A stretch of 27,230 nt of DNA, from positions 1-27,230 of IMG/VR virus record IMGVR_UViG_3300009104_000101; one strand, 5' to 3'. Positions 707 through 21,861 of this stretch are shown piece by piece; the stretch's first letter is position 1, and every line of letters begins with the position of its first letter. A program made the translations under genes and the position numbers. Origin of the DNA: a virus. The notes beneath the pieces were generated by a model. The model saw only the letters and a program-made list of their open reading frames with translations. It did not search any database and was not told where the DNA came from.

Positions 707-3700
707 TTATTTCTTTTTAATTTTTACATAATATACTACAGTTCCTGCTGGGGACTCTAGTTCTACGATATCGTTAGAGTCAAAATCTTTTAAGTTCCTA
801 TACATAACCTTTTTATAACCCTGTGCTTTTAATTTTCTAATATCGTTTTTATAATCTACTTTGGCTTTTTCTTTTGCTTTTTCTTCTTGTTTAATAGTAC
901 TTTGTAATCCCCAATAAGGTAATCCTACGCTCCATGTATCCCATCCTAATACTAGAGCCACTCTTTGCCATGCTCTCGTTTCTTCATCCATCGCTGCTCT
1001 TAAGTTCATTGTCTTACGTAATACTCTATCTACGGGCAAATTAGTAGCTGCTGAAACCAATTGTGCTAAAGCTAAATAAGTAGGATTGTCTAAACTCCAC
1101 CCACGTTTTTGAATTTCTTCCATATTCCAATTAAATGTTTTAGCTGTTGTTCTTAGTTTACGTATTTTTGAATCTAAAACTGGCGAAAACCCAAATACCT
1201 CCCATACAGCTTCTTCATAATCTGGTGATTTCTTTTCATTTTCGCTGGCAACAACCATTGCTATATTTTTAACTGTAGATATTACGGCCCCGCCAAATCC
1301 AAGTCCAAATAATAAAGAGTCCGCCATCCCATTAAGAATTTTAGCTGCTCTAGTTTTCTCTTCTTCATCAGTTTCATCATCAAATAATAATGCAAATAAT
1401 GTTTGTTGTAAACTATGAAATACAATATTTTGTACAGTACTATAATATACAATTTGAGAAATATTACTTAAATCGCTTTCTCTTTGAGTCATACCAGGGT
1501 TTTTTCTCCTATTATATAAATCTCTAATAGATTTTTTCATTCTTCTATTATACTGCATTGTAACATTTTGGAATGATAATATAACCCTACCAGCTAGACT
1601 TGCTTGTTGCTGAGATATTTTACTTGGATTACTTGATTGCTGAGTTTCTTCTGATATAGCATAAAAATCATCAAATGCTTTTGCCTCTGCTTCTGCTTCT
1701 GTATATTTTTTACCGGTTTCTTGATTAATTCTTTTTAGATAAGTAGCTTTTCTATTAATAAAGAATGTAGCACCACCAGTGGCAATTGCTAAACTATCCA
1801 TTATTCGAGTTATAATAAATCCTTTATCTAATAAATAGTTAACCATTCCTTTAAATCCACCTTTTCTACCAGCATCTACAAGTTCAGCTTCATTAACATT
1901 GATTTTTAATCCATCACGCCTGTTAACTAGATAATCAGAATTTAGTAATTTTATTACAGTAGGGAAATAATCTTTACTAGCAAAAGCTTTAGCTGCTGCA
2001 TATATATTATTATCACCCCAATTAATAAAGTTAATATTAGAAATTAATTGAAGCAATCCTGATCTCATATTAACAAACATAATAGCCCCAACAGATCCAT
2101 TTAGCCAATCTAACATTTCATTTACTATTCTTGCACCACCGCCTTGATATACTGGTCTATTACTACCAGATTTCATTCTACGTAAACTATCTTTTAATGC
2201 ATCAACCCATTTCTTACCATATAGTGCTTCAAGCTTATTCATATTCTTATCTGAGAATATAATCTTAGTATTCTCATCAAATTCGGTCATTGCTTTTCTT
2301 CTAAAATTAGTGTCTATATCATTCATTAAATCTGTATCAATAGTGCCTGCTATCCAATTATCTCCTGGAGCTGGATATTGTTTGCTTTTTGCTATTAACA
2401 TAACATTATCAGCAAAACCCATTAGCTCTACATCATTTTCTACAGCCTTAACTAAAGCATTTTGATCACGCTTAGACAAACCGGGAATTTCCATACCTTG
2501 TTTAGTCCACATATATACTCTCATTGCTTGAGATTTGGTATAAGGGCCAACACCAATTTCATTCATTAAAGGATTATTTAATCCCTTAGATTTTAAAGAA
2601 GGATAAGCTTTTTTAAGTGCAGCAAAATCATTTGCAACTGCTACTTTAGCAGATAAAATTTCTTGCTCAGCCTTATTAAAAGGATCAATTAGGTTGTCTC
2701 TAATCCATTTAGCATGCCTATTCCCTTGTTCGCCATACCCCATTAAGTCATACATTAGCCCTAAGAAATCTTCAGCAGAAGGAGTTATAGTTAATTGATC
2801 GCCCAACCATTTAAAAAATCCTTTGTCTTTTTTCTTTCCTTCTAATCGAGCTCGAGTTTCAGAATATTCTGCTTGTGCTTTTAAACCAGTTGTTTCTTCT
2901 AGCATTTCATTAAACTCTTTATCAAGATTTATTTCTTTATCTGCTATAGCTTGTTGTACTTTAGATTTAACATCTACTTGATCTAAAATTTGCTTCACCG
3001 CTTTTACATTAGATAACTGGTCGTCAGCAAAATAAAAGTCATTGTATCCTTCTTTGGTTTTTTGTAATATCCAATCAGCTTTAGCTTGAGAGCTGCCATT
3101 TTCTAGTCCAATTATATTTTCTATTGGTATATTTAAACCTATACTATCTAAAAATAATTTTATATTTTGTGCCGATGCCTGTGGCCTAGCTGTAAGAATA
3201 TAGATATCACCACTTCCAAATTTATCTTGTCTACGTAAAGCTAAATCTGCTAATGGGCCTTTTTTAGCGCCCTTGACATCTTTAAATTGTGAAAAATCGA
3301 ATTCTGCTCCTTGTGCAGCTAATATATCTGCTTGCTCTGCAAACTGCGCTGGAGTTAATCTTCTTAATGTACCATCAGGCATTTTAACTAAAACTTGTTC
3401 TTTTGTTTTAGCTAATGTATCATCTAAATCAAATACACTAATGCCTTTTTTCTTTTTATTTACTTTCTGCGCATTTACTTGAGTATCTAAAGAGTTTTCT
3501 AAAGTTTCTTTTGTTTGTGTAGTTGTTTGGTCTTTATTTGTAATAGTGGGGGCTAATTTATTAATTTTCTTTTTAGCTTTCTTTTCAGATTCTATTACAG
3601 CATCAGGGGATCTTTCAATCATAACAAGGTTTTTCTGATTAACTGCCCCGTCATATCTTGATAAATTCTCTCCTGTTGTTTTCCTGCCTAATCCACCTTT

Positions 3701-6700
3701 TTCTTTAGTATCATTTAATTTTTTAGCCTCTTGCTTGCCTATAATATCTACATGACTTTCGTCTAATATTTCTCTTATTTGTTGTTTGGCACTTTCAACA
3801 TTCTGGTTTGTTTTTAATACATTTCTAATTTTTTCACGGATAGTTGCAATAGGGGGAGTATGCTCATATTCTACTTTTATATCACCGTTTTTATCTGCTT
3901 TAACATTGTCTTGTATAGACCTTATAGTTCCAACCATTCGTAAAGCAGAATCGCTAGCTCCACCCATTATATCTAATAACTGAATTGCTACATCTTGTTC
4001 GCCAGCTTCAATTAAATCCCCTAATGTTTCAACAATATAATTTTTAGCTTCAATAGAGTTTTTATCACTACTTGCAATATTGTCTTTTATATATTTAAGA
4101 GCTCCTTTTATACCACTTTTTTTATATATTTTTGCTATATTAGTTGGGGCATTAGAAGGTCTAAGTGGCCCAGTATTTATTAATTTTTCTCCATTTAATA
4201 AAATAGAACTTCTTTTGCCTTGTACAGAAAGCGTAAAGCCATAATCACTTAATTTAACACCAAGCTGTTTTTCCCAATATTTATAAGCAGCTTGGGCATT
4301 ATCACCTTGCCATAATTGATGAGCTTGTGTATTTTTTTGATAAGAAGTATTTATAAATTGTAAAAAGTTTTTTAGAATTATTTGTTTTGCATCATTTGAT
4401 ATATTCCTTCTTTTTAATAATTTTTTAATTCTATTAATTTCATAATCAGATACATTATTATATTTATCTTTAGCAACTTGGGCAAAAGCTTCATCAACTT
4501 TTTGTTGTACTATTTCATAATTATCAATATCTATTTCAGTAAGAGTACCAATTGTATTATCAACTATTTGTTCTTGCTTGATAGTTACTGCTATAAGGTC
4601 TTTTATTTGCTGGGCCCCTCGTTCTAGAGCTTGAACAAAAGATAAACCTTCTTGTAATGCGGCTTTAATTCCTCTTAAAAAAAGTACTATAGTTTGCCTC
4701 CCTGCTTCTAAAAACCCCATATTCATTCCTAATACATTAGGGTCGGCTTTTAATTTTTCTACAGTTTCTATACTTTTATCAATACCTTCAATTATTACAT
4801 CTAAAGATCTTTTTTCTTTAATTCTTCCATCATATGTTCTTTCTACTTCGTCAATAAACTCTTCTGCTGTCATTTCTACCCCAGCTTCTTCTAATGAAAT
4901 AGATAAATCCTTCATGAAATCTTTATCAGTTTTCATTTCTTGAAATTGTTCAATAGTTAATCCTTTTGCTAATAAATCTATAAAACTTCTACGGCCACTT
5001 TGATCTTTTGTATAAAAATCTATTAAAGCTTGTTTGTTTAATCCAGAAAGTTTATAAATCCCTGTTCCAGCTGCTGTTCCTTTTTCTCTACCTATTTTTT
5101 CTATATTAAACCCTTTAACAGTTTTAAACCTCTTTTTCATCGCAGCTATAGGAATAGTTTCTATATAGCCGTCATTTATAGCCTTTTTTATAAAATCATT
5201 CTGCGCTTTTACACTTTTCCCCATCGCCTTTCTTACTGCAGCTTTTGTTGCTTTATTTTGGGCTTTTAATTCTTTTGCAAGTGATGAAGGATCTAGTTTA
5301 GTAATTATTTTTTTACCTTTTCCCCCGATTTCTTTTACTTTACCCACAGAACTAGCTATAAATTGTTTTACGCTAGTTTTAATATTTGTTAAAATCTCTG
5401 GCCTAACATCAGCGGTTTGTTTTTCTATAGCTGCAATATCAGTAGGGTATTTTTTCTTTTCAAATTCTTTACCTTGAGTTTCTTGGGTTTCCTCAGCTTG
5501 AAGTTCCTGAGCCCTTTCATCCGACAAACGAGTTGATTTGCCTTTTTTATCTAATTGCTGTTCTGCCCCATAAAAAGCAGATTTTTTAGGTTTTATATTA
5601 GCGGTAATATATGTAGATAATGACCCCTTAGATGGATCCCAACCCTCTAATATTTGATTAAAATGTTTATTTACAAATGATACAGCATCCTCTCTTTTAA
5701 CAGTGCCTTTCTGGCTATCAAACCCTAAAGCTTTTAATGCAATTTTTTCATATTGATTTAATAAGCTTTCCATATTTGAAGTTCCAATATTGCCGTCTTT
5801 ATACTCTGTGCCTAAAGTATCAATATTTTCTCCCTTAGAGCCTGTAGGAACAATACCTTGGGCCACAGTGTCTCCTTCTAAACTTTTTGCCAATATATCT
5901 GCTTCTTGAATAATTTTCTCAATTTCAGCATCTACTTCTTTTTTCCTATTAATTTCAACAATACTTATTTGTTTATTATTAGTTTGCTTTATTTGATTTT
6001 CTAAATTTTTTTGTTCCATCAATAATTCAACTAATCTTTTCCTATCTCTAGCATTTACATGAATTGGAACTGTTAAACCAGCATTTCGTACATTTGAAAC
6101 TCTTTCTAATTCTTCTCTTTTTTGCTCTTTATTTAAATAAGGATCATTTTCAATTTCTTTTTTTAATTCTTTAAATAATGCTTCTACTGTTTTACTTGTT
6201 TTACTTTCAGGGTTTATTTTTAATTTAGAAACAATAGCTTTAGCTCTATTTGTATAAGACCCCATCATTATCCCAGCCATTTGGCTTTGCCCAAATAAAG
6301 CACCACCAGCAGTACCTACTCCCATTAATCTTCCTAATACCCATCCACCTTCTGCGCTTTCTAATATTTGATCAAAATCTATATTAGATGTAAAAGGATT
6401 TTCTTGACCTACAGCAGCATTTGTAAAACCTTGTTCTAACCAGTCCTGAAAGCCTTCAGTTCCCCATTCTTTCCATTGTCCTAATTTATAAACAGAAAAC
6501 CCAGTTACAGCATTTATTAAATATTTTTGGAATCCATTACGCATTAATGTTTTCATCGTAGGATTATCAAATACAAATCCTCCCATTTTACCACCAACTT
6601 TCGAAAATATTAAATCAGAGAAAAATTCACTACCCATTACTGATGCCCCAGCCCCTATAGCGGCTAATTGATCACCATATTTAGGATCTTGTAAAGCTTC

Positions 6701-9031
6701 AAAAAATTCTTGTGGGGTTATTTCTCTCCCGGCATATTTAGGATCATTTTGCATCTGTCTTCTTACGCCCTCCATATAAACACTACTATATGTCATAGCC
6801 CCTTGTATAGTAGCCCCTGCTGCCATTAATATTCCCCCAGACCACATAAGGCCGCTTGCCACAGGAGTAGCAATTCCTCCTGTTGCTACACTCATAGCTG
6901 TTCCTCCCGCCATTAACGCACTACCTAATAACGATGGTACCATGTGAGTAGCTTGATTAAGACCCATTCCTAAATGCTGCATAAACCCTTCAACACTTAA
7001 AAAATCCTCTGTAACTTCAAGTTTATTAAGTTTTGCTAATTCCCCATAAGCATCAATCATTTGGTCATAATCATTTAAGTTCGCCTCCATAGTTTCATTT
7101 AAATCTGACTCTCTTTGATCTAAAAACTCACCAACAGTTAAATCATCATCTCTAGTGCCTCTATAAGCAACTAAATATCTATTTAATTGTCCATTATTAT
7201 CAAGTTTTCTAGCTTCACCTACTTTCATATTTAAATCTAATCCAGCACCGCCTTCTAAAAAAGGGCCTCCTTTAATTTGTTGTTTAAGATTTTCTACAAC
7301 TCTATTTCTATTTTTTAATCTAGGAGCACGTAGACTTATTTCCATCTCATTCCAAAACTTCCCTTCATACCATACAGATTCTTTAAATTGAATAAAATTT
7401 TCATCTATATTGGCCTTCCCTCTTTCAAATTGTGGAATAGTTCTAAAAATATTTTCACCTCTTGCCCCACCTCTTATATTAGTAAATATACGTTTTGCAG
7501 CATCTATAATATTCATATCTTCCATGGAACTATAAATTTCCATTCTTTGGTCAATACTTTTTAACCTAGGATCATGCATTCTTGCATGACCTTTAAATAC
7601 ATCGGGCATTAACTTTTCAGCTATTACTCCATATTCTTTATATATTCTCGCTGCTTCGGGATTATCTATTAAAGCTTTTTGAAACTTTTTATTATATAAA
7701 TCTTGTACTGCTACTTGGTATTTTTCTACCATTAAGTTTAAATCTTCCTCAGAAGTTCTATTAGCAACCATTTCATTTATTTGATCGACTTTATTGTTAA
7801 ATTCTCGAACTAATGGATGATTACCAAATTCAGGATTACTTCTATACCACTTATCTTCACAATAAATACCCCATTTTTGACATTGCCCCTGCATCCAATC
7901 TACTCTTTTTTGCCATTCTTTATTTATATTTTCAATAAATTTAGGGTCTTCTATTTGCATTTTAAGCTCTGTAGCTTCTTGAGACAATAAATCATATTCT
8001 TCTTTATCTATACCATAATCGATATATTCTAATTCTAAATTATTTACTTCTGCAAGAAATTCCTCATTATTTTCAATTTCATTCCCAATATTTTTAGTTA
8101 GTTTAATAGTTCGGGGGTCTGCTTGATAAGCTTTATTAATAGCTTTTAAATATTCTTCTGTTATATAAGACTCTTTAGTTTTGGGATTGATTCCCTCTTT
8201 AATATCTTCAAATTTAGGCATAAATTGCATTACATGGGCTTTTGCCTCAGGGGTTGCTTCTACTATTTCAAATAACTTTTCAGCTGTAAGATCTATTTTG
8301 CCTGCTTGATAATCTATAAGAAGTTGTTTATTATCAATAATTTCTTCTTGGGTAATATATTCTTCAGAATTTTCTTTAATAAAATTTTGAATTTCTTTAT
8401 CATTATTTGCAATAGGACTTACAGTTAATGATTCTCCATTAGGTGCAGTAATTTTTATATCAGCATTAAGATTTCTATGTTTAATTTCAAATTCAAAATT
8501 AAGACCATTAAATTTATTATTTAAAATTTCTAATGCTTGTTCAGCCTCTGGCAACCCTTTTGCTCTAATTCCTCGAGCTTGATTTCTTTGAGTTAAATTA
8601 TTTGATAATCCTAATTCAGTTTCATAATCTATTTCAGCATCTATAACAATTCCACTTGGTTGTTTAGGTATAAATGCTATAGGAGAGGAAACATTATCAA
8701 TATTCTGCTGTGTAGCCTCAACATTAGGAGATCCATCTTTATTTAATATTGGGTTTTCAGCTATTTCTTGTTTACTATTTAAAGAATTATTTATTTGATT
8801 AATCCACGATTTATCTTCATAAATTTCTTTTTCTTGTGTTAAAGATATATTACTCCCGTCTACATTTACTGTATCTGAAACAGGTTCAATTTCTGCTTCA
8901 GTTTCCACTGGCGATTTTTCATTTCTTCTTTTATGTTCAGCTACAACTTTCTTTATTTCTTCTTCAGATTTTCCATCTAGTTCCATCTGGCGAATTATAT
9001 CTGCTAAGCTGTTCAATACTGCTAATGCCAT
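707..9031 (-). CDS. Giant virion-associated polyvalent/ejection protein with HAD phosphatase-like domain
   Basis: At 2774 residues this gene fills almost a third of the window. The N-terminal 650 residues are charged and mostly helical. Residues 690-755 form a Gly/Ala-rich hydrophobic stretch, with a second one near 895-925. Residues about 1085-1185 include WDPSKGSLSTYITANIKPK (W1131), resembling sigma-70 region 2. A conserved-looking EHTPP string sits at about 1723. Residues about 1860-2020 are a HAD hydrolase-like domain with motif I DLDDT (D1868, D1870), motif II ILTARP (T1947), motif III K1984 and motif IV FADDQ (D2003, D2004). More hydrophobic segments lie near 2305-2335, 2524-2550 and 2564-2600. 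Similar giant proteins occur late in structural operons of marine podoviruses. I infer that it is packed in the head and ejected with DNA, with the hydrophobic parts helping cross the envelope. No polymerase or lysozyme motif was seen. Confidence 0.85.
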   Translation of the reverse strand: MALAVLNSLADIIRQMELDGKSEEEIKKVVAEHKRRNEKSPVETEAEIEPVSDTVNVDGSNISLTQEKEIYEDKSWINQINNSLNSKQEIAENPILNKDGSPNVEATQQNIDNVSSPIAFIPKQPSGIVIDAEIDYETELGLSNNLTQRNQARGIRAKGLPEAEQALEILNNKFNGLNFEFEIKHRNLNADIKITAPNGESLTVSPIANNDKEIQNFIKENSEEYITQEEIIDNKQLLIDYQAGKIDLTAEKLFEIVEATPEAKAHVMQFMPKFEDIKEGINPKTKESYITEEYLKAINKAYQADPRTIKLTKNIGNEIENNEEFLAEVNNLELEYIDYGIDKEEYDLLSQEATELKMQIEDPKFIENINKEWQKRVDWMQGQCQKWGIYCEDKWYRSNPEFGNHPLVREFNNKVDQINEMVANRTSEEDLNLMVEKYQVAVQDLYNKKFQKALIDNPEAARIYKEYGVIAEKLMPDVFKGHARMHDPRLKSIDQRMEIYSSMEDMNIIDAAKRIFTNIRGGARGENIFRTIPQFERGKANIDENFIQFKESVWYEGKFWNEMEISLRAPRLKNRNRVVENLKQQIKGGPFLEGGAGLDLNMKVGEARKLDNNGQLNRYLVAYRGTRDDDLTVGEFLDQRESDLNETMEANLNDYDQMIDAYGELAKLNKLEVTEDFLSVEGFMQHLGMGLNQATHMVPSLLGSALMAGGTAMSVATGGIATPVASGLMWSGGILMAAGATIQGAMTYSSVYMEGVRRQMQNDPKYAGREITPQEFFEALQDPKYGDQLAAIGAGASVMGSEFFSDLIFSKVGGKMGGFVFDNPTMKTLMRNGFQKYLINAVTGFSVYKLGQWKEWGTEGFQDWLEQGFTNAAVGQENPFTSNIDFDQILESAEGGWVLGRLMGVGTAGGALFGQSQMAGIMMGSYTNRAKAIVSKLKINPESKTSKTVEALFKELKKEIENDPYLNKEQKREELERVSNVRNAGLTVPIHVNARDRKRLVELLMEQKNLENQIKQTNNKQISIVEINRKKEVDAEIEKIIQEADILAKSLEGDTVAQGIVPTGSKGENIDTLGTEYKDGNIGTSNMESLLNQYEKIALKALGFDSQKGTVKREDAVSFVNKHFNQILEGWDPSKGSLSTYITANIKPKKSAFYGAEQQLDKKGKSTRLSDERAQELQAEETQETQGKEFEKKKYPTDIAAIEKQTADVRPEILTNIKTSVKQFIASSVGKVKEIGGKGKKIITKLDPSSLAKELKAQNKATKAAVRKAMGKSVKAQNDFIKKAINDGYIETIPIAAMKKRFKTVKGFNIEKIGREKGTAAGTGIYKLSGLNKQALIDFYTKDQSGRRSFIDLLAKGLTIEQFQEMKTDKDFMKDLSISLEEAGVEMTAEEFIDEVERTYDGRIKEKRSLDVIIEGIDKSIETVEKLKADPNVLGMNMGFLEAGRQTIVLFLRGIKAALQEGLSFVQALERGAQQIKDLIAVTIKQEQIVDNTIGTLTEIDIDNYEIVQQKVDEAFAQVAKDKYNNVSDYEINRIKKLLKRRNISNDAKQIILKNFLQFINTSYQKNTQAHQLWQGDNAQAAYKYWEKQLGVKLSDYGFTLSVQGKRSSILLNGEKLINTGPLRPSNAPTNIAKIYKKSGIKGALKYIKDNIASSDKNSIEAKNYIVETLGDLIEAGEQDVAIQLLDIMGGASDSALRMVGTIRSIQDNVKADKNGDIKVEYEHTPPIATIREKIRNVLKTNQNVESAKQQIREILDESHVDIIGKQEAKKLNDTKEKGGLGRKTTGENLSRYDGAVNQKNLVMIERSPDAVIESEKKAKKKINKLAPTITNKDQTTTQTKETLENSLDTQVNAQKVNKKKKGISVFDLDDTLAKTKEQVLVKMPDGTLRRLTPAQFAEQADILAAQGAEFDFSQFKDVKGAKKGPLADLALRRQDKFGSGDIYILTARPQASAQNIKLFLDSIGLNIPIENIIGLENGSSQAKADWILQKTKEGYNDFYFADDQLSNVKAVKQILDQVDVKSKVQQAIADKEINLDKEFNEMLEETTGLKAQAEYSETRARLEGKKKDKGFFKWLGDQLTITPSAEDFLGLMYDLMGYGEQGNRHAKWIRDNLIDPFNKAEQEILSAKVAVANDFAALKKAYPSLKSKGLNNPLMNEIGVGPYTKSQAMRVYMWTKQGMEIPGLSKRDQNALVKAVENDVELMGFADNVMLIAKSKQYPAPGDNWIAGTIDTDLMNDIDTNFRRKAMTEFDENTKIIFSDKNMNKLEALYGKKWVDALKDSLRRMKSGSNRPVYQGGGARIVNEMLDWLNGSVGAIMFVNMRSGLLQLISNINFINWGDNNIYAAAKAFASKDYFPTVIKLLNSDYLVNRRDGLKINVNEAELVDAGRKGGFKGMVNYLLDKGFIITRIMDSLAIATGGATFFINRKATYLKRINQETGKKYTEAEAEAKAFDDFYAISEETQQSSNPSKISQQQASLAGRVILSFQNVTMQYNRRMKKSIRDLYNRRKNPGMTQRESDLSNISQIVYYSTVQNIVFHSLQQTLFALLFDDETDEEEKTRAAKILNGMADSLLFGLGFGGAVISTVKNIAMVVASENEKKSPDYEEAVWEVFGFSPVLDSKIRKLRTTAKTFNWNMEEIQKRGWSLDNPTYLALAQLVSAATNLPVDRVLRKTMNLRAAMDEETRAWQRVALVLGWDTWSVGLPYWGLQSTIKQEEKAKEKAKVDYKNDIRKLKAQGYKKVMYRNLKDFDSNDIVELESPAGTVVYYVKIKKK

Positions 9032-9043
9032 ATTTAAATTTAT

Positions 9044-10150
9044 TTAACCAAGATATTTTTTATATAAATCTTCATCGGTAGTTTCTGTTATTTGTGGTAT
9101 TAATGTGGGTTTGCCATCTTCCCCTTCTGGTACTTGGTTTTGTATAAAAGGTAATAACATGTTTTTTATAAAATACGCATGATATTTTTCGCTAAATTCC
9201 TTTTTTTGTTTATTATTTAAAGGCAAATTTTGATATGCCCAACTTTTATCTCCAGCATTTTTATCTTTAACTTGCTCATCATCTTGTACCATGCTGGTAT
9301 CATTTGCTAAATACATATTCCATAGAGCCACCGCGCTTTGTTCATCAGATAAATATCCAGCAACTTCAGCCTGTAATATAGGTGTAAGTTTTTTAACAAT
9401 TTTGGCTTCATCATATTGATATACATTTCGCATATATTTTTTACCATCTATTTCAATTTCAATTTGATCATATATAGGATTTCCTTCGACGTCTAATATT
9501 CCATAATCTGCTATAGATATTTTAGCATCAGGATTTAACTTTTTAGTTTCAGAATTTATATAAGCTGGATTAATTAAAGCAGCGGAGGTTAATACTTCTT
9601 CAGCTCCCTCGTTTATATCAGGAGTAATTGAAATTAAAGATTTATCATTATCTATTAATTGTTTTAATCTACTGCTATTAATTTTAAATTCTTCATCAAA
9701 TAATGGCCCATTCGCGCTTAATTCAAAACTGCCATCATCTAATAAATTCATGTCTATTGCATACCCATCTTTTTCGCTATACCCAGGTCTTCCATTTATA
9801 ATATTATTTAATACCATATATGTAGAAGGATTATTTATATCATAATTAGGTTGTTTTAATGCTTCTAGTTCTGTAGTAATATTAGTTATAAATTTTATAG
9901 CTTCTTCAGGGGCCTTTTCAAATATTTGATTTTTATGTGCTAATTCTTCACAATTATCACAATCGTTGGTATTAATTTTTCTAGCATTTTCAGCATATTC
10001 AGCAGCAGTATTAGCAAAAGCTTTTCCTAATACATCAAATGTCTTTCCGGGATTAGATTTTAATAACGCCGTATTATAAGCTATTCCGTCATTACTATCT
10101 TCATTTTGAAGTTGTTGAGATTGTATTCTATTTTCTTCTGGTGATAACAT
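9044..10150 (-). CDS. Hypothetical virion/cargo protein (368 aa)
   Basis: I do not recognise a domain in this 368-residue acidic protein. It has a Gln/Asn-rich N-terminus, a CDNCEE cysteine pair at about residue 63 and an Ala-rich helical stretch around residues 40-60. A beta-containing centre carries strings such as IADYGILDVEGNPIYDQIEI, and the C-terminus is helical and ends DEDLYKKYLG. There is no signal peptide or transmembrane segment. It lies between an Ala/Gln-rich internal-virion-like protein and the giant virion protein, with 11- and 12-base gaps, which is where T7-type phages encode internal core proteins. By position it may be a capsid cargo or ejection protein, or a chaperone for loading one. 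The function is unproven. Confidence 0.7.
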   Translation of the reverse strand: MLSPEENRIQSQQLQNEDSNDGIAYNTALLKSNPGKTFDVLGKAFANTAAEYAENARKINTNDCDNCEELAHKNQIFEKAPEEAIKFITNITTELEALKQPNYDINNPSTYMVLNNIINGRPGYSEKDGYAIDMNLLDDGSFELSANGPLFDEEFKINSSRLKQLIDNDKSLISITPDINEGAEEVLTSAALINPAYINSETKKLNPDAKISIADYGILDVEGNPIYDQIEIEIDGKKYMRNVYQYDEAKIVKKLTPILQAEVAGYLSDEQSAVALWNMYLANDTSMVQDDEQVKDKNAGDKSWAYQNLPLNNKQKKEFSEKYHAYFIKNMLLPFIQNQVPEGEDGKPTLIPQITETTDEDLYKKYLG

Positions 10151-10161
10151 AATTTTTATTT

Positions 10162-10863
10162 TTATTTTCCGCTTTGAATTCCAGCTGATGCTATTGTAGT
10201 AAAGGCTCCGGTAAATGCCGCTGTTTGATCAGCTTGTGCTTGGTTAGATGCTGCTTGAGCATTAGACATTAATGCTGCTATCCTTGACATTTGATCTCTA
10301 TCTCGTTGTTCTTGCGCAGTAAACATAAATTGGGCACCTTGTGCTTCTGCAGCCTGTACTCTTTGACCTTCAGAAATACCTAATTGTTGTAATCTTAATT
10401 TTTCAGCTAATGTTCTTTCTTCTAACCTGGCTTCTCCTTCTGCCCTTAATCTTTCATTTTGAGCCTCTTGTTGTTCAATTCCAGCAGCAATCTGTTTTTT
10501 AGAAGCCAAAGCTGCTTGAGCTAAAGCAGTTGCCCCACCAGCAGATGATCCAGTTGATCTTAAAGTATCTAATGTATTTGCCAATGCTATATCCGATTGC
10601 TCCATTTGGATTTCAGCTGCTTGCGTAGCTACTCCTAAATGAGCCATAGGATTACTCATTAAACTAGACAAATCTTGAGCCATACCGGCTAAACTGGTTA
10701 CATTTTCCCAAGGATTTATAATAGCTTGTCTATTTCTTTCGAGACTATCTAATTTTGCCTGAAGCTTTCTAGCTTTTGATGCTTGGCGTCTACGTTCTTT
10801 TCCAGATCGTACTCCCTGAAAAACCATTCCTGCGACCGCGACTCCTGTTGCTGCCCAACTCAT
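10162..10863 (-). CDS. Internal virion / DNA ejection protein, T7 gp14-like in character
   Basis: This 233-residue protein is dominated by Ala, Gln, Glu and Arg. Its N-terminus (residues 1-18) is hydrophobic and Gly/Ala-rich, followed by a basic patch (GKERRRQASKARK) and then long amphipathic helices likely to form coiled coils from about residue 90 to 215. The C-terminus is Ala/Thr/Gly-rich (AAFTGAFTTIASAG). This hydrophobic start plus Ala/Gln-rich helical body is typical of podovirus internal virion proteins such as T7 gp14 and P22 ejection proteins, which form a conduit for DNA across the envelope. The assignment rests on composition and gene position between the tail genes and the giant virion protein, not on a signature motif. 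The leader is AT-rich without Shine-Dalgarno. Confidence 0.7.
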   Translation of the reverse strand: MSWAATGVAVAGMVFQGVRSGKERRRQASKARKLQAKLDSLERNRQAIINPWENVTSLAGMAQDLSSLMSNPMAHLGVATQAAEIQMEQSDIALANTLDTLRSTGSSAGGATALAQAALASKKQIAAGIEQQEAQNERLRAEGEARLEERTLAEKLRLQQLGISEGQRVQAAEAQGAQFMFTAQEQRDRDQMSRIAALMSNAQAASNQAQADQTAAFTGAFTTIASAGIQSGK

Positions 10864-10867
10864 ATTA

Positions 10868-11347
10868 TTATTGTTTTAATTGTTTTTGATTTGCTATAAA
10901 TTTATCAAATTCTTCATAATTAATAGCTATATTTTCTTCTTCTATTTTTTCTAAATCTTTTTTATTATCTTTATTTAAATGGACAGTTGTCCAAATTAAT
11001 TCAGTTTTAGCATATACTGCTCTTTTTACCCCTGGCGGGGAAATAAAAGAACAAGGACCTTTTAATTCTTTAATTCCTCCATTTTCAGTTGCCACTATTG
11101 CTTCTCCTTTTAATAAGAAAGCTGGATGTTCATGTTTATGTATTTTGCCTATAACCACTACACCTGCTGGAACTGTTAATTCTCTAACATACATTCCTTC
11201 AGAAAACAAATGTTTTACTGGGAAATCTTCTGGTACCATTATATATTCTTTATCTAAACTTTTAATTTTATCTTCAAGATTTATTATTTGAGATCTAAAT
11301 TTTTTGTTAGATAAGTTGTGATTCTTTTTCAAATCTACTTTATCCAT
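10868..11347 (-). CDS. Cupin-fold protein encoded within the tail gene cluster
   Basis: This 159-residue protein has a helical N-terminus (1-40), a cupin-like beta barrel at about residues 43-124 and a charged helical C-terminus. Cupin motif 1 is recognisable as GKIHKHEHPAFLLKGEA, with H70, H72 and H74 as possible metal ligands. Motif 2 is seen as GPCSFISPPGVKR, where the usual motif-2 histidine is replaced by Arg, and a further histidine lies in TTVHLN near residue 123. The metal site is therefore non-canonical, or the barrel may serve only as a structural or binding fold. Small cupin proteins are common beside structural genes in marine phages, to my recollection, but their role is not established. 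It lies 10 bases after the 492-residue tail gene and 4 bases before the ejection protein gene, arguing for late expression and a virion or assembly role. Confidence 0.8.
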   Translation of the reverse strand: MDKVDLKKNHNLSNKKFRSQIINLEDKIKSLDKEYIMVPEDFPVKHLFSEGMYVRELTVPAGVVVIGKIHKHEHPAFLLKGEAIVATENGGIKELKGPCSFISPPGVKRAVYAKTELIWTTVHLNKDNKKDLEKIEEENIAINYEEFDKFIANQKQLKQ

Positions 11348-11357
11348 TTAATTTAAT

Positions 11358-12836
11358 TTATCTTAATCTATAGTCGCTGCTTACAGCGAATAATTCTTTT
11401 AATCCTCCAGGATCAGTAGTAGCATCAGTTTGCATAGTTACTGTAGCATAATAAGCTTTTATACCCATAGTTTGATTGCCCCATATTACTTCACCTGCTA
11501 AAGGATCAGCAGTAGTATTTTGTATAGACGCCACATATTGATTTTGTTTTCTATCAAAACCAGCTCTATATTGAATATTATCTTCAATATATGCGCCTTC
11601 ATCATAACTATATATAACTGAAGCCGTGTCATTATTATTTATCCAACTACCATCTATTAAATCTTTACCTGTTTCATCAGAAATTAAAGATGTAACTTTC
11701 CATCCATTAGTTCCTTCATAAGCAATAGTTTGAAAAGTTTTTACCATATTAGGTTCTGGATTAAATATAAATTGAATAGAAGAACTATTGTCTACTCCAT
11801 AAAATTGATTTCTAGGTATAACAGCTCCACTACTAGTAGTTGTTTGATAATGCTGGTATATTTTAGGTCCATAAGCTGTATAATATTGCCCTTGTAAACT
11901 AAAAATTTGATTAGGTTTATATGTATAAAACCCTGTCCACCCCTGTGTTCTTTCATCAAAAGTTAAAGTTTTATAAGTGCCTTGTTCTTCTGAGTGTGCC
12001 GAAGCAGTCATTGGATTAGTCTGTAAAGATAATACATAATTTTGATTATATACATCATATCCACCAACTAATGCCCCTGTACTAGAAATTAATGATAATT
12101 GATCTCTAAAAAAGTCAATCATTCCATAATTAGATATTTCTTCTATATTCCCTCCAGCTAATCGTAATACAGCATTTCTATGCCTGTCTACAAAATATTT
12201 TCTATATCCATAAGATGCAAAAGATTCTGGATTTGTTCCAATACCCCAGTTCCCAAGTATAGGGGTTATTTGTCCTATAACAATATTAGCTGAAGTTGTC
12301 ATTGGCTGACCCTCTGCGGTATAAACTGCATCTTTATCTATTAAAGCTATATTTACTTTTCGTTCTTGTAATATTGTTAAATTAGTATCTTCTGCAAATA
12401 GTTTTTGTATTGTCCCACCTATAGGATCTACACTTCTTGTAATTTCTTCACTAACACTAAATTGATTAGTATTATTAATCCCTGTTCTAGAATTATATAT
12501 TCCTGAATAAATTAAAGAATTTCCTCTTCTATTACTAGTATCATTCTCTTCAACAATATAAGCTTTAACCCCATAGTCTGTACTAGTATTATTATATCCA
12601 CCCCTAATTCTTGCTTCTTCTAAATACCAATCTTCAGCAAAATTTTTCGCGGGTTGCCCAACGGGTGGGCCTGTTTGATAAGCTAATGCTCCAGCGCCAA
12701 TATTAGCGTCTGTGGTAGGAGAATCTAAAGCGCCAACAGCCCAATAAGCTGTACTAGGTGCACTAAAAGAAGGAAAATCTGCTTTTTTCTTCATCCAAAA
12801 TGAGTTAAAATATCCTATCTCTAGTGTTATAGCCAT
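11358..12836 (-). CDS. Tail protein, nozzle/muzzle-like (492 aa)
   Basis: This 492-residue, beta-rich protein is high in Thr, Ser, Gly, Tyr and Asn. The most family-like part is residues 138-245, with IGGTIQKLFAEDTNLTILQE, then KDAVYTAEG, WGIGTNPESFASYG and AVLRL followed by a GMIDFF segment. A later block contains GGYDVYNQNYVLSL (258-271) and an ERTQGWTGFYTY string (about 295-306). I associate this set with the large tail hub or muzzle proteins of crAss-like and marine Bacteroidota podoviruses, where related blocks form beta-propeller-like tail structures. In those phages I recall these blocks sitting in the same polypeptide as the N-terminal module found in the upstream 1471-residue protein, so this gene may be the separated distal half. 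It follows that gene after a 33-base AT-rich gap. There is no signal peptide or obvious receptor-binding motif. Confidence 0.7.
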   Translation of the reverse strand: MAITLEIGYFNSFWMKKKADFPSFSAPSTAYWAVGALDSPTTDANIGAGALAYQTGPPVGQPAKNFAEDWYLEEARIRGGYNNTSTDYGVKAYIVEENDTSNRRGNSLIYSGIYNSRTGINNTNQFSVSEEITRSVDPIGGTIQKLFAEDTNLTILQERKVNIALIDKDAVYTAEGQPMTTSANIVIGQITPILGNWGIGTNPESFASYGYRKYFVDRHRNAVLRLAGGNIEEISNYGMIDFFRDQLSLISSTGALVGGYDVYNQNYVLSLQTNPMTASAHSEEQGTYKTLTFDERTQGWTGFYTYKPNQIFSLQGQYYTAYGPKIYQHYQTTTSSGAVIPRNQFYGVDNSSSIQFIFNPEPNMVKTFQTIAYEGTNGWKVTSLISDETGKDLIDGSWINNNDTASVIYSYDEGAYIEDNIQYRAGFDRKQNQYVASIQNTTADPLAGEVIWGNQTMGIKAYYATVTMQTDATTDPGGLKELFAVSSDYRLR

Positions 12837-12869: not shown

Positions 12870-15800
12870 TTACAGTGTTCCTATACAGTTAGCCCCATAG
12901 TTTCCTGCCTTAGGATAATTCTTATCTCCATATTCTACATAGAACTTATTAGTACCGCAAGCAGCTCCACATGCTCCACCTCCCATTTCTTTAGTAAATA
13001 CTCTATATTCACCAGCTTGACTGAACCAATATTCATCTGAATCTGGTGCTCCATTGGTAGCTGTTAATTGTATATTATAACTAACTTCTCCACCACCTAA
13101 TTGAGCTGGGGAATTTTCATCGCAAGTCGCTGTAGTCCAAGAAGACTCCGCATCTTCCCTATATTGAATGCTATAATAAATTGTTGCATCACTAGTGGTA
13201 CATGTACTTGTTAAAGTTGGTATAACTTTCATTGTTCCTGCAGTCAAAGCACCTGTAGTATATGGTCCTATTTCGCAAGCAGCCTTAGCTCTAACATTAT
13301 ATAAAGCATCTGGTGGCCAATTGTATCCAGCGATTCCATATGTTCCACCTGTATCTAAATCTGTACTATTTGTTTCAGCAAATAACCACTCACTATTCTG
13401 ATTACATGTTGCCCAAGTTGTTGTATCCCAAGCACAGCAAATAGCCCTTGGCGTATGTTGTAAACCTACAGTAAAAGTAGCCACTTCTTCATCTGTTAAG
13501 CCCTCTCCATTTATATCTGTAAGACGAATACCTACATTATAAGTGGTATTTTCAACCATTGTACCAGTTACAGTTAAAGCTCCAGCAGAACTCATACTAA
13601 ATATAGCACTATTAGCAGTATAATCTGCATGATTAGGGTCTAAATCCCAAAATAATTCTAATGTTTTTTCAGTTGTATTGTTAGTATTAGTTCCATTTAC
13701 TCCTGTAAAAGTATGAATAGTTGTTGTAGCTAAAGTTGGAGCCGTTATACTAAAACTATCAATTTCTGGGGCTATATTTGTTAATGTAAGCGTATAAGGC
13801 CCTATGTCATCTGTATAAGTTTCCGTTAAAGGCGTATAAGTGGTTCTAAATGTTAAAGTAAATATATCAGTAGAATTCCCTGGAGATTTTGAATTAGCAT
13901 TATACCAAAAATATTTACCTGCACTTGTACTTAATTGGAATTCACCATCCGCAGGGCCAGATGATTCTGTTAAAGTAAACAAATTTTCTGCGGTTCTATC
14001 AGCTCCTGTTTGATCTACTACTTGTTGAATTACAGCAGATATTTTACTTCCATCAATAATTGAACTTCCGCCTCCATCTATGAAATTAAAAGGTGTTCCA
14101 ATATCAGTAGAGGGGGCATCGCTTTCGGGAAATGTGGAAGAATTCTTTTCCATCCCTATCACACCGCCATATTGTGCATCTACCATAGCATTTAATAAAT
14201 CTATTCTACCTGATAATGAAGTTTCATAAAATAATTCTAAAAGAGAATATACTGGTTTAGTTTCTACAACACTTAAATAAGGTTGACAACTATTTATTGT
14301 ATCTGCTGCTCCAGCCGATGCGCTTGTGATGTTTGCGCCTACAATACCTGCATTAGTAGGAATATCCGTAGGAGATAAATTAGCTGGACCATTTTGTGAT
14401 GTACTAAACTTTATCATCATAGGATTTTCATCTGTATTATATAAAGGGGCAACAACGGGTGATACTCCCCATGGCACGCTTCCTAAAGCTGTTGGTGTAT
14501 TTACCCATCCTGTAGTAGCGGCCCCTACTTGAGTTATAACCATTTTATCATAAGGCCCTTGCGGCGTTCCAGTATTTATAAAAGGAATAGATACTAACTC
14601 CATATCTTTCACCGTAGCAATTGAAAGTACGTTTTGGGATATTGTTCCAGGATAATATTGGGCATTCCATGGCACATCTTTTTGTGGTATACCATAAGGA
14701 CGATTAGAATTTCTATTATTTATATTAGGAGTATTTACTCTAATATATAATAATTCACTACTATTAAATTCAGTATCTGTAGGTCCTACTTCTTTTAAAT
14801 CTCTAGGGATTTTATTAATATTATCACTTAATAAAGTAGAAAAACTAACTTTATTTAAATCTGCTCCTCCTCCTACTACAGGATACCCATTAGTAAATCC
14901 TGGCAAATATACATTATAATATTCTTGTTCTTGTTGTTTTACTACAATTTTATAAGAATACCATCCTAAAGGATTTTCTTCACCTATATTAATTTTAAAT
15001 TCACCATCTTCGGCACCGCCCTCAACAGTTAATTGATCAGATTGGCTGTATCCACTACCGGGATTTACAATTGTTAAAGCAGTTACCGCACCACCACTAA
15101 CTGATGATACTAAAACTGTACATCCACTGCCATTCCCGCCATTCGTAGGATAAAAAGTATTTGCAACATACCCACTGCCTCCATCCACTATGCTTTCAAT
15201 ACTAGCAGCATGTCCTACTTCAGAATATAAACCAGGCCAACCAGTAGTAGGGTCAGGGTCTTTAGGCCCAATAGCTCTGTCTAGTCTTACTGTTAGAGCA
15301 TCCCCTAACCAATTTATAACAGGATTAGCTGTTTGATCTCCGTAAGTATTATAGGCATTATATATAGTAGAGCCTTTTAGTGTATCAGAACTATCATAAG
15401 ATGAAAGAACAACATCAGATTGTCTTCCGTACTTATCTGCTAATACCCATCCTACTTGATAAGTTCTATTTTGTTTTGCAGTATGATTAGGATATTCAAT
15501 AAAATTATTCCAACTTAAGGACTTGTCATTAACACCAGCCTGATAATCTATAGAAGAAGGGCTAGTGTGTTTATCTACATAGTTTCCATATACAATTCTA
15601 TTGCTTATTAATTCTTGGGCTAAAGCTTTAATTGGAACTTTATCATATACTCTTACAGTTTGTGATTCGGGTAATGTTTTATAAGGCTTTGCTGAATCAT
15701 AAGTATAATCATAATAATATTGAGTATTTAAAGTATGAATTATATCATTATATCCTATACTATTAAAATTTGTAGATTGATCTAGCTCGCTTACTTTAAT

Positions 15801-17285
15801 TTTTTCTAAAACTGTTACAGCTAAAGAATTAGATTCACGATATAATAAATCTATTTCAGTTATTTTTAAATTAGATGTTAAAGCTGCCGGAGTACTATAA
15901 GGCATAGGGGTTCTAAGCTTTACAGTAGTAATTTTATTTTCAAACCAAGCTACAATAGTAGATTTATAAGCCTCATCCATATCAGGACCAGGATCAGCGT
16001 CTGATTGTTGTCCTTTTCCAAACTCCCCATCTTGTTTAGGAATAAAGATAGGTTGACTAAATGGAGCCATTAAAGAATATTCATTATCTTCAAATTTAAA
16101 TCTATAACTAAACCTTACAAATTTATTTTCTAAAAATTTTTTATTAGCAAAAGTGCTATTATAAAATTGATTATTACCTATTATAATATTATCACTAGTT
16201 GTTAAAGTAGTAGCTTTTGATAATTTTATATATAATTTTAAAACACCAGCCCCGTCATGTTGACAAACCATTTGTGTTATTGTAGTATCAGCAGGCACTC
16301 TAGCGGCATCAGTGCTACAGGTTACAATATCCCCAATTCTTGGTAATCCCCCAGTTGATTGAGTAGCAGCTAAACCTCCAGATCCTTGGTTTAATCTAAA
16401 TTCAGTAGTATTAGCTACTTGAGGATTTACAGCAGGACTTATATCATTTATTCTTCCAACACTCCAATTTGAAACATAAATTTCCGCTTCATCTCGCATG
16501 GTAGGTCGAGAAAAATCAATATAAAAATCATCATCCCATTGAACCTTTGTGTCTAATTTTAATTTTGTTCCATCTAATATACCTATTACTTTTATTAAAG
16601 TAGTAATAACAGGTGTAAATCCTGGTGCTTTATTATAATCAGTTATAATATCCCCAATTTTTACATTAGTAGTGCTCCCGGTTATTTCAATATCATAAGA
16701 AGCACTTGCCATATTACCATCAATTGTTGTAGTATATCTATCTAATATTTCTATTGGTTGATGAGGATAATATTTAGCAACAGAAATTTGCTCTTCAGTT
16801 GTATAATGAGTAGAACTAAGGCTAGCTAAGGTAACATTTATTTTCCTTGGTTGATTTAAATTATCTGTCCAAAATAATAATTCTTCTACTAAATTAACTC
16901 CAGTTATTCTAAAAGATTTATTAAAATTAAGAAAATAACCTATAACTAAAGTGGATAAAGTATTAGCATTAATATCATATTTATATATGCCACAATTAGC
17001 AGTACTAGGGGCTCGTGTATTGCCACTAGCATTATCCCAGTCTGTAGCAAATAAATATATTATATTATTTGTTTCATCTGTAGCATATCCAATAATAGAT
17101 TTTGAATTACCTGTGTCTATAATTGAAGTATTCCCTAATACATTTTCAAACTCACCAACTGTAGAACCTTCAGATCTACTAACTAATAAGTTAATAGCTT
17201 CTCTATATTCACCAGCAGGTACAATACGAGAGTCAAGGTCTTGGTTCATTTTACCTTTTAAAAAGGTATTTTTAGTTTGTGCCAT
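12870..17285 (-). CDS. Large tail hub / tail stabilization protein
   Basis: This 1471-residue protein opens with a family signature covering residues 4-50: KNTFLKGKMNQDLDSRIVP, then AGEYREAINLLVSRSEG and VGEFENVLGN. I recognise it from tail stabilization/hub proteins of crAss-like and marine Bacteroidota podoviruses. The body is beta-rich and low in Cys. Residues about 695-755 hold a Gly-rich element with two GSGY motifs around GSGCTVLVSSVSGGAV. Residues about 1170-1280 resemble an Ig/cadherin-like domain (LELFWDLDP, YNVGIRLTDINGEG). The last 190 residues are Cys-rich, with nine cysteines beginning at C1283/C1284. By analogy to P22 gp10-type hubs it should attach below the ring proteins and close the DNA exit channel, with the C-terminus perhaps surface exposed. 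It starts 3 bases after the stop of the 398-residue connector gene, so the two are probably translated together. Confidence 0.75.
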   Translation of the reverse strand: MAQTKNTFLKGKMNQDLDSRIVPAGEYREAINLLVSRSEGSTVGEFENVLGNTSIIDTGNSKSIIGYATDETNNIIYLFATDWDNASGNTRAPSTANCGIYKYDINANTLSTLVIGYFLNFNKSFRITGVNLVEELLFWTDNLNQPRKINVTLASLSSTHYTTEEQISVAKYYPHQPIEILDRYTTTIDGNMASASYDIEITGSTTNVKIGDIITDYNKAPGFTPVITTLIKVIGILDGTKLKLDTKVQWDDDFYIDFSRPTMRDEAEIYVSNWSVGRINDISPAVNPQVANTTEFRLNQGSGGLAATQSTGGLPRIGDIVTCSTDAARVPADTTITQMVCQHDGAGVLKLYIKLSKATTLTTSDNIIIGNNQFYNSTFANKKFLENKFVRFSYRFKFEDNEYSLMAPFSQPIFIPKQDGEFGKGQQSDADPGPDMDEAYKSTIVAWFENKITTVKLRTPMPYSTPAALTSNLKITEIDLLYRESNSLAVTVLEKIKVSELDQSTNFNSIGYNDIIHTLNTQYYYDYTYDSAKPYKTLPESQTVRVYDKVPIKALAQELISNRIVYGNYVDKHTSPSSIDYQAGVNDKSLSWNNFIEYPNHTAKQNRTYQVGWVLADKYGRQSDVVLSSYDSSDTLKGSTIYNAYNTYGDQTANPVINWLGDALTVRLDRAIGPKDPDPTTGWPGLYSEVGHAASIESIVDGGSGYVANTFYPTNGGNGSGCTVLVSSVSGGAVTALTIVNPGSGYSQSDQLTVEGGAEDGEFKINIGEENPLGWYSYKIVVKQQEQEYYNVYLPGFTNGYPVVGGGADLNKVSFSTLLSDNINKIPRDLKEVGPTDTEFNSSELLYIRVNTPNINNRNSNRPYGIPQKDVPWNAQYYPGTISQNVLSIATVKDMELVSIPFINTGTPQGPYDKMVITQVGAATTGWVNTPTALGSVPWGVSPVVAPLYNTDENPMMIKFSTSQNGPANLSPTDIPTNAGIVGANITSASAGAADTINSCQPYLSVVETKPVYSLLELFYETSLSGRIDLLNAMVDAQYGGVIGMEKNSSTFPESDAPSTDIGTPFNFIDGGGSSIIDGSKISAVIQQVVDQTGADRTAENLFTLTESSGPADGEFQLSTSAGKYFWYNANSKSPGNSTDIFTLTFRTTYTPLTETYTDDIGPYTLTLTNIAPEIDSFSITAPTLATTTIHTFTGVNGTNTNNTTEKTLELFWDLDPNHADYTANSAIFSMSSAGALTVTGTMVENTTYNVGIRLTDINGEGLTDEEVATFTVGLQHTPRAICCAWDTTTWATCNQNSEWLFAETNSTDLDTGGTYGIAGYNWPPDALYNVRAKAACEIGPYTTGALTAGTMKVIPTLTSTCTTSDATIYYSIQYREDAESSWTTATCDENSPAQLGGGEVSYNIQLTATNGAPDSDEYWFSQAGEYRVFTKEMGGGACGAACGTNKFYVEYGDKNYPKAGNYGANCIGTL

Positions 17286-20343: not shown

Positions 20344-21861
20344 TTAAGCTACAAATAATACGAAATTATTTCTTGCTTGAGTACATAGACATCTTTCTGA
20401 TAAGAAGTTAACCTCCATAGCATCTAGAGTAGAAGTAACAGCACCGCCAACAGAACCTGTTAACCATGATTTCATTCTTCTATCATCTGCTTGAGAAGCT
20501 CTATATCTTACATGTAAGAAAGGTCTCCTAATGTTTGTTCCAAGTAACTGATCGTATACTGTAGAAGTACCAGCTGGTACTAATACACCATCAATGTTGT
20601 CACCGTTAACAAAATTAGTTGAACCGCCTCTTGTAGAAGCGTCATTTAGATATTTCCAAGAAGTTTTATAGAAGTCATATGAACCTCTTCTAAAACCAGA
20701 GAAACCTAAGTTAAGCGCCATGTCTTCAGAGTTTTCAAATACACCATAAGATGTACCACCAGCTCCGTAAGAGTTTTGTTGCGCTAACATGTTATCAAAT
20801 AATAACTCAGTTTTTCTATCTAAGAAAAGCATATTTTCTTCAATAGCTCCTTGAGTATCTAAATTCTCTAGAACTTGATCAAAGTCTTGTAAACTTCCAG
20901 CATAGCCAGAAAGTACATTACCACCATTATTAATAGCAGCAAATAAACCTTCAGTACCTAGAGTAGTTGTTGCAGCCGAGAACGAATTAACGTTAGCAAG
21001 GTTATCTGCAAAACTTTGAGCACCACCACCTGCAGCTGCAGTTGCTAGTTCACCTTCAACCATTGCCATTTCAAGATAATCTTCAAATCTCATTCTAGTT
21101 TCACCTTCAGCTTTTAAATACCAAAGATACCCACTAGTTCCATCTTCTCCCGCTACTTCAACCCAACCGATTTGCGCAGTATCAGATCCACTAACAGCGT
21201 ATCTGTTTCTGATTATGATTGGTTTGTTTTGGAAAGTTGATAATTGAGGTTGAATAGATTCTCCTGTAGTAGCATTGTCTAATGAAGATCCTTTTGCATA
21301 TTCAGAACCGTATACAAATACTTTTAATCCAGTTACTACTGCACCAGGTACAGCTGCTCCAGAAATAAAGCTTTGATTATAAGCATATGCAGTAAAAGTT
21401 GCATAAGCAGCAAGAGCACCAACTGGAGCACCTCCAGAGTTTCCTACTATTGCTTTAACGGTAAATGAAGGGTCATTAGGATTCATAACCACAACAGTTG
21501 CATTTGGCATAATAGCATTTTGAATTGCTCCACCTGCTACAATTGCCGCACCTGCATTATCATTGATAGTCATTGTAAAACCATCAACAGCTAGACTTAC
21601 ATTATCATAAGCGATATGTAATCTATTTTGTTCAGACCAAACTACTTGGTCAGACATCATTGGCATTTCAGCGCCAACCATTCTTAAGAAGCCACTTAAC
21701 GTTCTGTTTCCATAACGCTCTACCTCTGCTTCATAAATTTCTGGTAGATATTGTTGTGAGAAATCTCTAGTTCCATCAGTAAAACTCATATAGTTAGAAA
21801 CTAATAGTTGCTGATCAGAACTTGGAGATAATCCCCCAAACTGAGGACTTAATACACCCAT
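20344..21861 (-). CDS. Major capsid protein, HK97-fold type
   Basis: This 505-residue protein follows the scaffold gene, as is standard for capsid genes. The N-terminal arm contains FTDGTRDFSQQYLPEIYEAE and RTLSGFLRMVGAEMPMMSDQ, then VVWSEQNRLH (residues 73-82), a pattern I associate with capsid proteins of marine and crAss-like phages. Residues about 85-230 are a Gly/Ala/Val/Thr-rich beta section that probably includes the E-loop and an inserted domain. A helical part follows (RMRFEDYLEMAMVEGE). The C-terminus (FLSERCLCTQARNNFVLFVA) fits the final P-domain strands. It should self-assemble around the scaffold as hexamers and pentamers. The start ATG is preceded by AT-rich sequence without Shine-Dalgarno, and a stable UUCG hairpin lies just past the stop. 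The assignment rests on position, length and motif resemblance. Confidence 0.88.
   Translation of the reverse strand: MGVLSPQFGGLSPSSDQQLLVSNYMSFTDGTRDFSQQYLPEIYEAEVERYGNRTLSGFLRMVGAEMPMMSDQVVWSEQNRLHIAYDNVSLAVDGFTMTINDNAGAAIVAGGAIQNAIMPNATVVVMNPNDPSFTVKAIVGNSGGAPVGALAAYATFTAYAYNQSFISGAAVPGAVVTGLKVFVYGSEYAKGSSLDNATTGESIQPQLSTFQNKPIIIRNRYAVSGSDTAQIGWVEVAGEDGTSGYLWYLKAEGETRMRFEDYLEMAMVEGELATAAAGGGAQSFADNLANVNSFSAATTTLGTEGLFAAINNGGNVLSGYAGSLQDFDQVLENLDTQGAIEENMLFLDRKTELLFDNMLAQQNSYGAGGTSYGVFENSEDMALNLGFSGFRRGSYDFYKTSWKYLNDASTRGGSTNFVNGDNIDGVLVPAGTSTVYDQLLGTNIRRPFLHVRYRASQADDRRMKSWLTGSVGGAVTSTLDAMEVNFLSERCLCTQARNNFVLFVA

Follow-up and report, generated by a model that had tools for sequence, protein, structure and literature searches.

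A single very long gene closes the virion module of the virus fragment analyzed here (the complete 27,230-base IMG/VR record IMGVR_UViG_3300009104_000101; hereinafter the window), raising the question of whether its product is an inert part of the particle or a multi-domain cargo protein that carries enzymes into the host along with the phage DNA. The gene is one uninterrupted ORF coding for 2774 amino acids. The boundaries given for it in an earlier note on this DNA are exact (707–9031), with the correction that it lies on the minus strand and is read from 9031 to 707, the plus-strand frame over the same interval being full of stops. The chance of 2774 consecutive open codons at 32% GC is ~10^-95, and comparisons with two relatives yielded a dN/dS of ~0.3 for the N-terminal half (residues 1–1208 versus L081; dN 0.040, dS 0.128), ~0.09 for the HAD domain and ~0.15 for the C-terminal part (both versus L083). 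The frame is real, and purifying selection acts on the 2774-aa product.

All genes of the window are on the minus strand; those with an assignment used below are:

25530–27227, minus strand: terminase large subunit, its 5′ end cut by the window (phrog_6681, E = 5e-125)
23148–25529, minus strand: portal protein (phrog_6547, E = 2e-142)
20344–21861, minus strand: head protein in the major capsid position (phrog_13704, E = 3.5e-83)
12870–17285, minus strand: 1471-aa virion protein of the stabilization-protein region (phrog_14478, E = 9e-48)
11358–12836, minus strand: muzzle-type tail gene (PF25729, crAss_MUZ_C, 42.9 bits against a cut-off of 27)
10162–10863, minus strand: 233-aa cargo-type gene in the position of T7 gp14 (homolog of phi40:1 gp99; hhalign 94.3%, E = 1e-7)
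9044–10150, minus strand: 368-aa cargo-type gene, by its position comparable to T7 gp15 or crAss cargo 2
707–9031, minus strand: the giant gene (ORF of 2774 aa; dN/dS 0.1–0.3)

The order runs from the terminase and portal through a 417-aa protein, the capsid-position protein, three small virion proteins and the 1471-aa protein to the muzzle, and thence through genes for proteins of 159, 233 and 368 aa to the giant, which is followed by a 77-aa gene and a cut gene of the 408-aa type. The 159-aa gene (10868–11347), situated between the muzzle and the cargo genes, is cupin-like (Cupin_2, E = 0.09) and is not found at that place in the relative G002. With its muzzle match above the cut-off, the phage is crassvirus-related, and the cultured relatives of its portal are the flavobacterial phages Flavobacterium elemo, Cellulophaga phi38:1, phi40:1 and phi13:2, and Tenacibaculum Gundel. 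Judged by these sequence matches, the window is a fragment of a marine crassvirus-related phage; the cultured phages closest to it belong to Elemovirus, Pervagoviridae and Pachyviridae, whose records are not placed under Crassvirales. As the portal relatives infect flavobacteria, the host, assigned through relatives only, is probably a member of Bacteroidota. In the window and its relatives alike, the virion module ends with the giant, which comes behind the muzzle and the two smaller cargo-type genes; of these, the 233-aa one has homologs in 73 of 73 relatives and the 368-aa one in 49 of 73. These two neighbors bear out the statement of the earlier note that the giant follows ejection-type genes, and the transcription order (233, 368, then 2774 aa) fits that of a podophage third ejection gene.

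Searching IMG/VR with a profile built on the HAD and the C-terminal part, we recovered at least 561 related stretches, from which 77 distinct full-length giants were read (2267–3300 aa, median 2915). The window copy can be divided into the following segments:

8917–9031, minus strand: N-terminal tag of ~38 residues, MALAVLNSLADIIRQMELDGKSEEEIKKVVAEHKRRNE (iterated HMM, window E = 3.5e-10)
7742–8916, minus strand: variable N-terminal region, residues ~39–430 (homologs in 4–5 of 87 sequences)
5903–6904, minus strand: hydrophobic Gly/Ala-rich module of the ejection type, residues 710–1043 (39 relatives; hhalign to the gp101/gp127 module)
5816–5902, minus strand: junction, residues 1044–1072, the site of an HExxH cassette that is empty here (alignment and motif counts)
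5435–5815, minus strand: small helical domain, residues 1073–1199 (27 relatives; AF2 local pLDDT mostly 70–93)
4793–5293, minus strand: mid domain of helices and a β-hairpin, residues 1247–1413 (20 relatives; AF2 local pLDDT mostly ~85–95)
3482–4684, minus strand: variable linker, residues 1450–1850 (homologs in 2–3 sequences only)
2948–3457, minus strand: HAD phosphatase domain, residues 1859–2028 (motifs, PHROG 415, invariant residues)
866–2929, minus strand: conserved helical C-terminal core of ~690 aa, residues 2035–2722 (AF2 pLDDT 78; BFVD fold matches)

In the module comparison of 87 sequences, the N-terminal region (1–430) and the linker (1450–1850) were common to the window and just 2–5 sequences; the hydrophobic module was found by HMM in 39 relatives, the domains at 1073–1199 and 1247–1413 in 27 and 20, the HAD in 81 (a frequency biased upward, as the search patterns contained the HAD peptide NDFYFAD), and the core in all 82 of the giants bearing a C-terminus. 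Modules are also swapped among relatives, namely an HExxH motif (50/77), a kinase inside the HAD (7/77), a DUF3293 domain in elemo, and the HAD itself, which is missing in L089. Given this uneven sharing, the giant is a mosaic whose C-terminal quarter is constant, and on these alignments it is that quarter, overlooked in the earlier note, rather than the enzymes that is the conserved core of the family. The whole giant had no match in Pfam, and phmmer and profile searches of PDB sequences returned nothing for the whole giant, the C-terminal core, the domain at 1073–1199 or the HAD. Some giant-bearing contigs (L182–L194) are found in MAG bins labeled Woesearchaeota, Maricaulis, Aliivibrio, Ilumatobacteraceae and Bacteroidetes, and are likely mis-binned phage contigs. 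A cellular origin of the giant was rejected, the genome-contig matches occurring only in such taxonomically scattered bins and in no isolate genome; accordingly, no integrated copy was seen.

The connection to virions comes from the hydrophobic module. The Gly/Ala-rich segments already remarked upon in the earlier note are present at residues ~697–740 and 789–809 (residues 701–800 being 32% G+A), with a moderate hydropathy only (maximum ~1.3 over 21 residues) and no confident fold match for the module. Through hhalign comparisons, we found residues 710–1043 to be homologous to a module of phi40:1 gp101 and phi13:2 gp127 (98.8%, E = 7e-17); the relative L087 bridges them in BLAST searches (E = 9e-20 against phi13:2 gp127 and 9e-13 against phi40:1 gp101), and elemo gp18 was matched with E = 3e-5. 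The giants at the same place in cultured relatives measure 3694 aa (elemo gp18), 1691 aa (phi38:1 and phi40:1 gp101), 1990 aa (phi13:2 gp127) and 3859 aa (MW202828). Two of these, both very large homologs by position, display further features: elemo gp18 (L098:2719–13803) has a DUF3293 domain (E = 1e-12) and the MW202828 giant (L099:741–12320) two HEFGH motifs. In the phi40:1 record, gp99, gp100 and gp101 are identified by MS/MS virion proteomics. Since the window giant has a module homologous to one of gp101, and its 233-aa neighbor is homologous to gp99, we infer that the giant is packaged in the virion; what gp101 shares with it is the hydrophobic module only, the HAD and C-terminal core not being found in gp101 by profile searches.

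Immediately after this module most relatives (about two thirds) have ~270 residues with an HExxH motif preceding the domain at 1073 (50 of the 77 giants by the strict motif; e.g., HEFLH in L090, L109 and L122), and in the window, L081, L083, L114 and L118 the hydrophobic module leads directly into that domain. By this alignment, the family usually possesses a predicted metallopeptidase that the window copy lacks, a second point that had been overlooked. Zincin-like metallopeptidases have been proposed to process polyvalent proteins (Iyer et al., PMC5512222), and the presence in most relatives of peptidases of the type proposed to self-process would suit a giant made late as a cytosolic enzyme polyprotein, left unpackaged and cut by its own peptidase. 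This we consider highly improbable, as the peptidase is missing from the window copy, the gene is placed among and co-oriented with virion genes, and the giant has a module homologous to that of the MS/MS-detected virion proteins.

The adjacent domain at 1073–1199 had been described as sigma-70-like, which our searches do not sustain: the window copy matched no sigma family, only one of 18 relatives did so weakly (Sigma70_r2, E = 0.08; NCBIfam sigma models, E = 0.007–0.06), no fold match was obtained, and the alignment of the domain did not match the sigma-like protein that a relative encodes separately. The latter, a 250-aa protein encoded among the early-side genes of G002 (L195:10902–11654, minus strand; Sigma70_r4, E = 6.5e-4, below the cut-off), suggests by this similarity that such phages may redirect the host RNA polymerase; G002 (68,850 bases) has no other giant gene. 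Next to no credence attaches to the giant being a diverged crassvirus cargo associated with RNA polymerase (gp47-like), or itself a virion RNA polymerase. crAss001 gp47 (L180:16120–23145), a giant cargo protein associated with RNA polymerase, does occupy the equivalent genomic place and contains an HExxH motif as well (HEAFH, residue 2157); however, the DxDxD motif is absent from the window giant, hhalign comparisons with crAss001 gp44–gp50 gave probabilities of at most 1%, tblastn with crAss001 gp50, which could miss distant relatives, found none in 15 related contigs (51–69 kb) or 5 cultured relatives, and one relative encodes the separate sigma-like protein instead. Homology to the RNA polymerase or to gp47 was rejected on the hhalign and gp50 tblastn results, and the view that the giant differs from the virion RNA polymerases of N4 and crAss-like phages stands in the comparison with the crAss001 cargo.

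AlphaFold2 modeling of residues 1847–2774 (50 sequences; pLDDT 78, pTM 0.67) produced a small α/β HAD domain and a long helical core. Foldseek searches of the PDB with either model gave no significant match, HAD folds being matched weakly (LHPP, probability 0.85); since the global confidence of the second model is low (pTM 0.36), its matches carry little weight. In BFVD, the 1847–2774 model matched 52 viral proteins with E ≤ 1e-3, many at 11–15% identity with a probability of 1.0, among them a Gundel_1 structural protein (low TM-score) and proteins named ART-PolyVal or ‘large polyvalent protein associated domain’; because the ‘polyvalent’ names may stem from other domains of these targets, we read the fold match as a resemblance to the class and not as membership. 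Membership in LPD38 (PF18857) was tried and rejected, with no hmmscan match at E ≤ 10, none in a genome search and none by hhalign against five LPD38 sequences; LPD38 being one of many polyvalent-associated domains, a protein lacking it may still belong to the class. Genes for polyvalent proteins are located next to those of the virion (PMC5512222), and the giant likewise adjoins late virion genes, exchanges domains between relatives, and combines several domains including an enzymatic one (HAD, hydrophobic module and helical core) in its 2774 aa. The idea central to the earlier note, a multi-domain virion cargo giant of the polyvalent kind, is thus supported by position, homology to the gp101 module, module swapping and fold matches.

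That the best-conserved part is a helical core and no enzyme, and that the cargo core of podophages is partly structural (PMC10925440), would also agree with a virion protein that is inert, an internal core or a kind of scaffold, its modules being structural remnants with no enzyme acting in the host. The HAD makes this distinctly unlikely: its catalytic residues are invariant among the 27 aligned relatives at a dN/dS of ~0.09, and relatives additionally possess enzymes for which a scaffold has no use, namely an HExxH peptidase and a kinase whose P-loop is intact.

The HAD domain itself, reported in the earlier note as phosphatase-like, is real, with intact motifs I–IV (D1868-L-D1870-D-T1872, T1947-A-R1949, K1984/K1991 and D2003-D2004). 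It matched PHROG 415, ‘polynucleotide kinase’ (E = 7e-6 with the HAD and 6e-5 with the whole giant), as did 20 of 27 HAD relatives (6 of 27 also matching phrog_1238), and beside this match had no significant PDB relative by sequence. It is therefore better described as a likely kin of the phage polynucleotide 3′-phosphatase-type HADs than as a generic phosphatase. In seven of the 77 giants (L146, L150, L160, L163, L167, L169 and L170; e.g., L170:9377–10006) a P-loop kinase with an intact P-loop lies inside the HAD, directly after motif I. One kinase-bearing member matched AAA_33 (E = 2.8e-15) and Zeta_toxin (E = 1.3e-10), and the best solved relatives of the nested kinase are 4gp7 (E = 8e-4), T4 polynucleotide kinase (0.03) and PezT/zeta toxin (0.26–0.47). 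The first, deposited as a metallophosphoesterase, we take to be the kinase domain of Clostridium thermocellum Pnkp (CthPnkp). A kinase nested in a HAD is an architecture unlike that of T4 or metazoan Pnkp. In L089 (9395–10000) another domain replaces the HAD ahead of the conserved C-terminal core. The closeness of the kinase to CthPnkp and T4 Pnk, together with the PHROG 415 match of the HAD, points weakly to 3′-phosphatase or end-healing chemistry. As a tentative extension, which we place on the unlikely side, this large marine clade without a packaged RNA polymerase might inject, as part of the giant, an end-healing HAD 3′-phosphatase, sometimes with a nested kinase, and so reverse the cutting of tRNA or DNA ends by the host before phage genes are expressed.

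Our preferred reading, which we hold to be probable, makes the giant an ejection protein of polyvalent build, the largest and the third in line in a marine podophage related to crassviruses, and one that delivers enzymatic modules with the DNA. It would be packed in the phage head and leave through the tail once the 233-aa and 368-aa cargo proteins have passed, presumably in that order; the hydrophobic module, by its composition and homology, may place it in or through the inner membrane, and the enzymatic modules would then enter the cytoplasm along with the DNA. The ~690-aa helical core would be the obligatory part, for assembly, packing or channel building, and the HAD a predicted active phosphohydrolase, most likely acting as a nucleic-acid 3′-phosphatase, with the remaining modules exchangeable and the usual metallopeptidase of the family missing in the window copy. 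The ~38-residue N-terminal tag is common to 47 of ~80 giants (the window and 46 others) though the regions after it are unrelated, and its HMM found no match in shuffled N-termini and five in 60-aa windows taken from the interior of other giants; we would guess that it is a packing or docking signal.

Polyvalent ejection cargo is already known as a kind: polyvalent proteins as a theme go back to a description of 2017, and the cargo of crassviruses has been tied mainly to RNA polymerase. New here are the marine crassvirus-related lineage, the constant HAD and helical core, the gain or loss of a metallopeptidase cassette, and the kinase nested in some HADs. This marine relative, to which hundreds of contigs are related, has in the ejection position a giant with a phosphatase on its constant core and with exchangeable protease and kinase modules, and the searches revealed no RNA polymerase. 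Should the giant be injected, it would show how these phages arm the earliest phase of infection, and the delivery of end-repair enzymes ahead of phage gene expression becomes testable.

Among known systems, the ejection operons of T7 (gp14-gp15-gp16) and DEV (gp73-gp72-gp71) run from small through medium to giant, and in DEV the giant is a virion RNA polymerase thought to traverse the inner membrane (PMC10925440). Like T7 gp16 and the gp71-type virion RNA polymerases of Schitoviridae, the window giant is the third and largest product of such an operon, with helical regions and enzymatic cargo; unlike them, it has no RNA polymerase or lysozyme that we could find. As Pfam, PHROGs and PDB fold searches gave no match to T7 or P22 gp16, we propose that it works like gp16 and not that it is a homolog. 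In crAss001, cargo proteins are stored in head and tail and must be partly unfolded for extrusion (PMC10172136); the genes for gp45–gp47 follow the tail stabilization region, as the cargo genes do here, and the giant gp47 is encoded at the same position, whereas profile comparison shows no resemblance to the window family and crAss001 packages an RNA polymerase. With the polyvalent proteins (PMC5512222) the giant shares huge size, multiple domains, a place by virion genes and exchangeable enzymes, the HExxH metallopeptidase being the commonest module in its relatives too, and its C-terminal fold is shared with BFVD-named polyvalents; it differs from them in the kinase nested in the HAD of relatives, in that no LPD domain is recognized by sequence, and in the missing peptidase of the window copy, and a text search of Iyer et al., 2017 (PMC5512222) did not find a HAD module. 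The likeness to Pnkp-type enzymes (T4 Pnk, CthPnkp) consists in the PHROG 415 match of the HAD and in the kinase of seven relatives; unlike Pnkp, the window has the HAD only, and the kinase of relatives is nested after motif I rather than fused head to tail. Finally, Cellulophaga phi38:1 and phi40:1 gp101 and elemo gp18, though without the HAD and conserved C-terminal core by sequence, occupy the same genomic place and have a hydrophobic module homologous to that of the window giant, and with phi38:1 and elemo in culture, packaging becomes testable.
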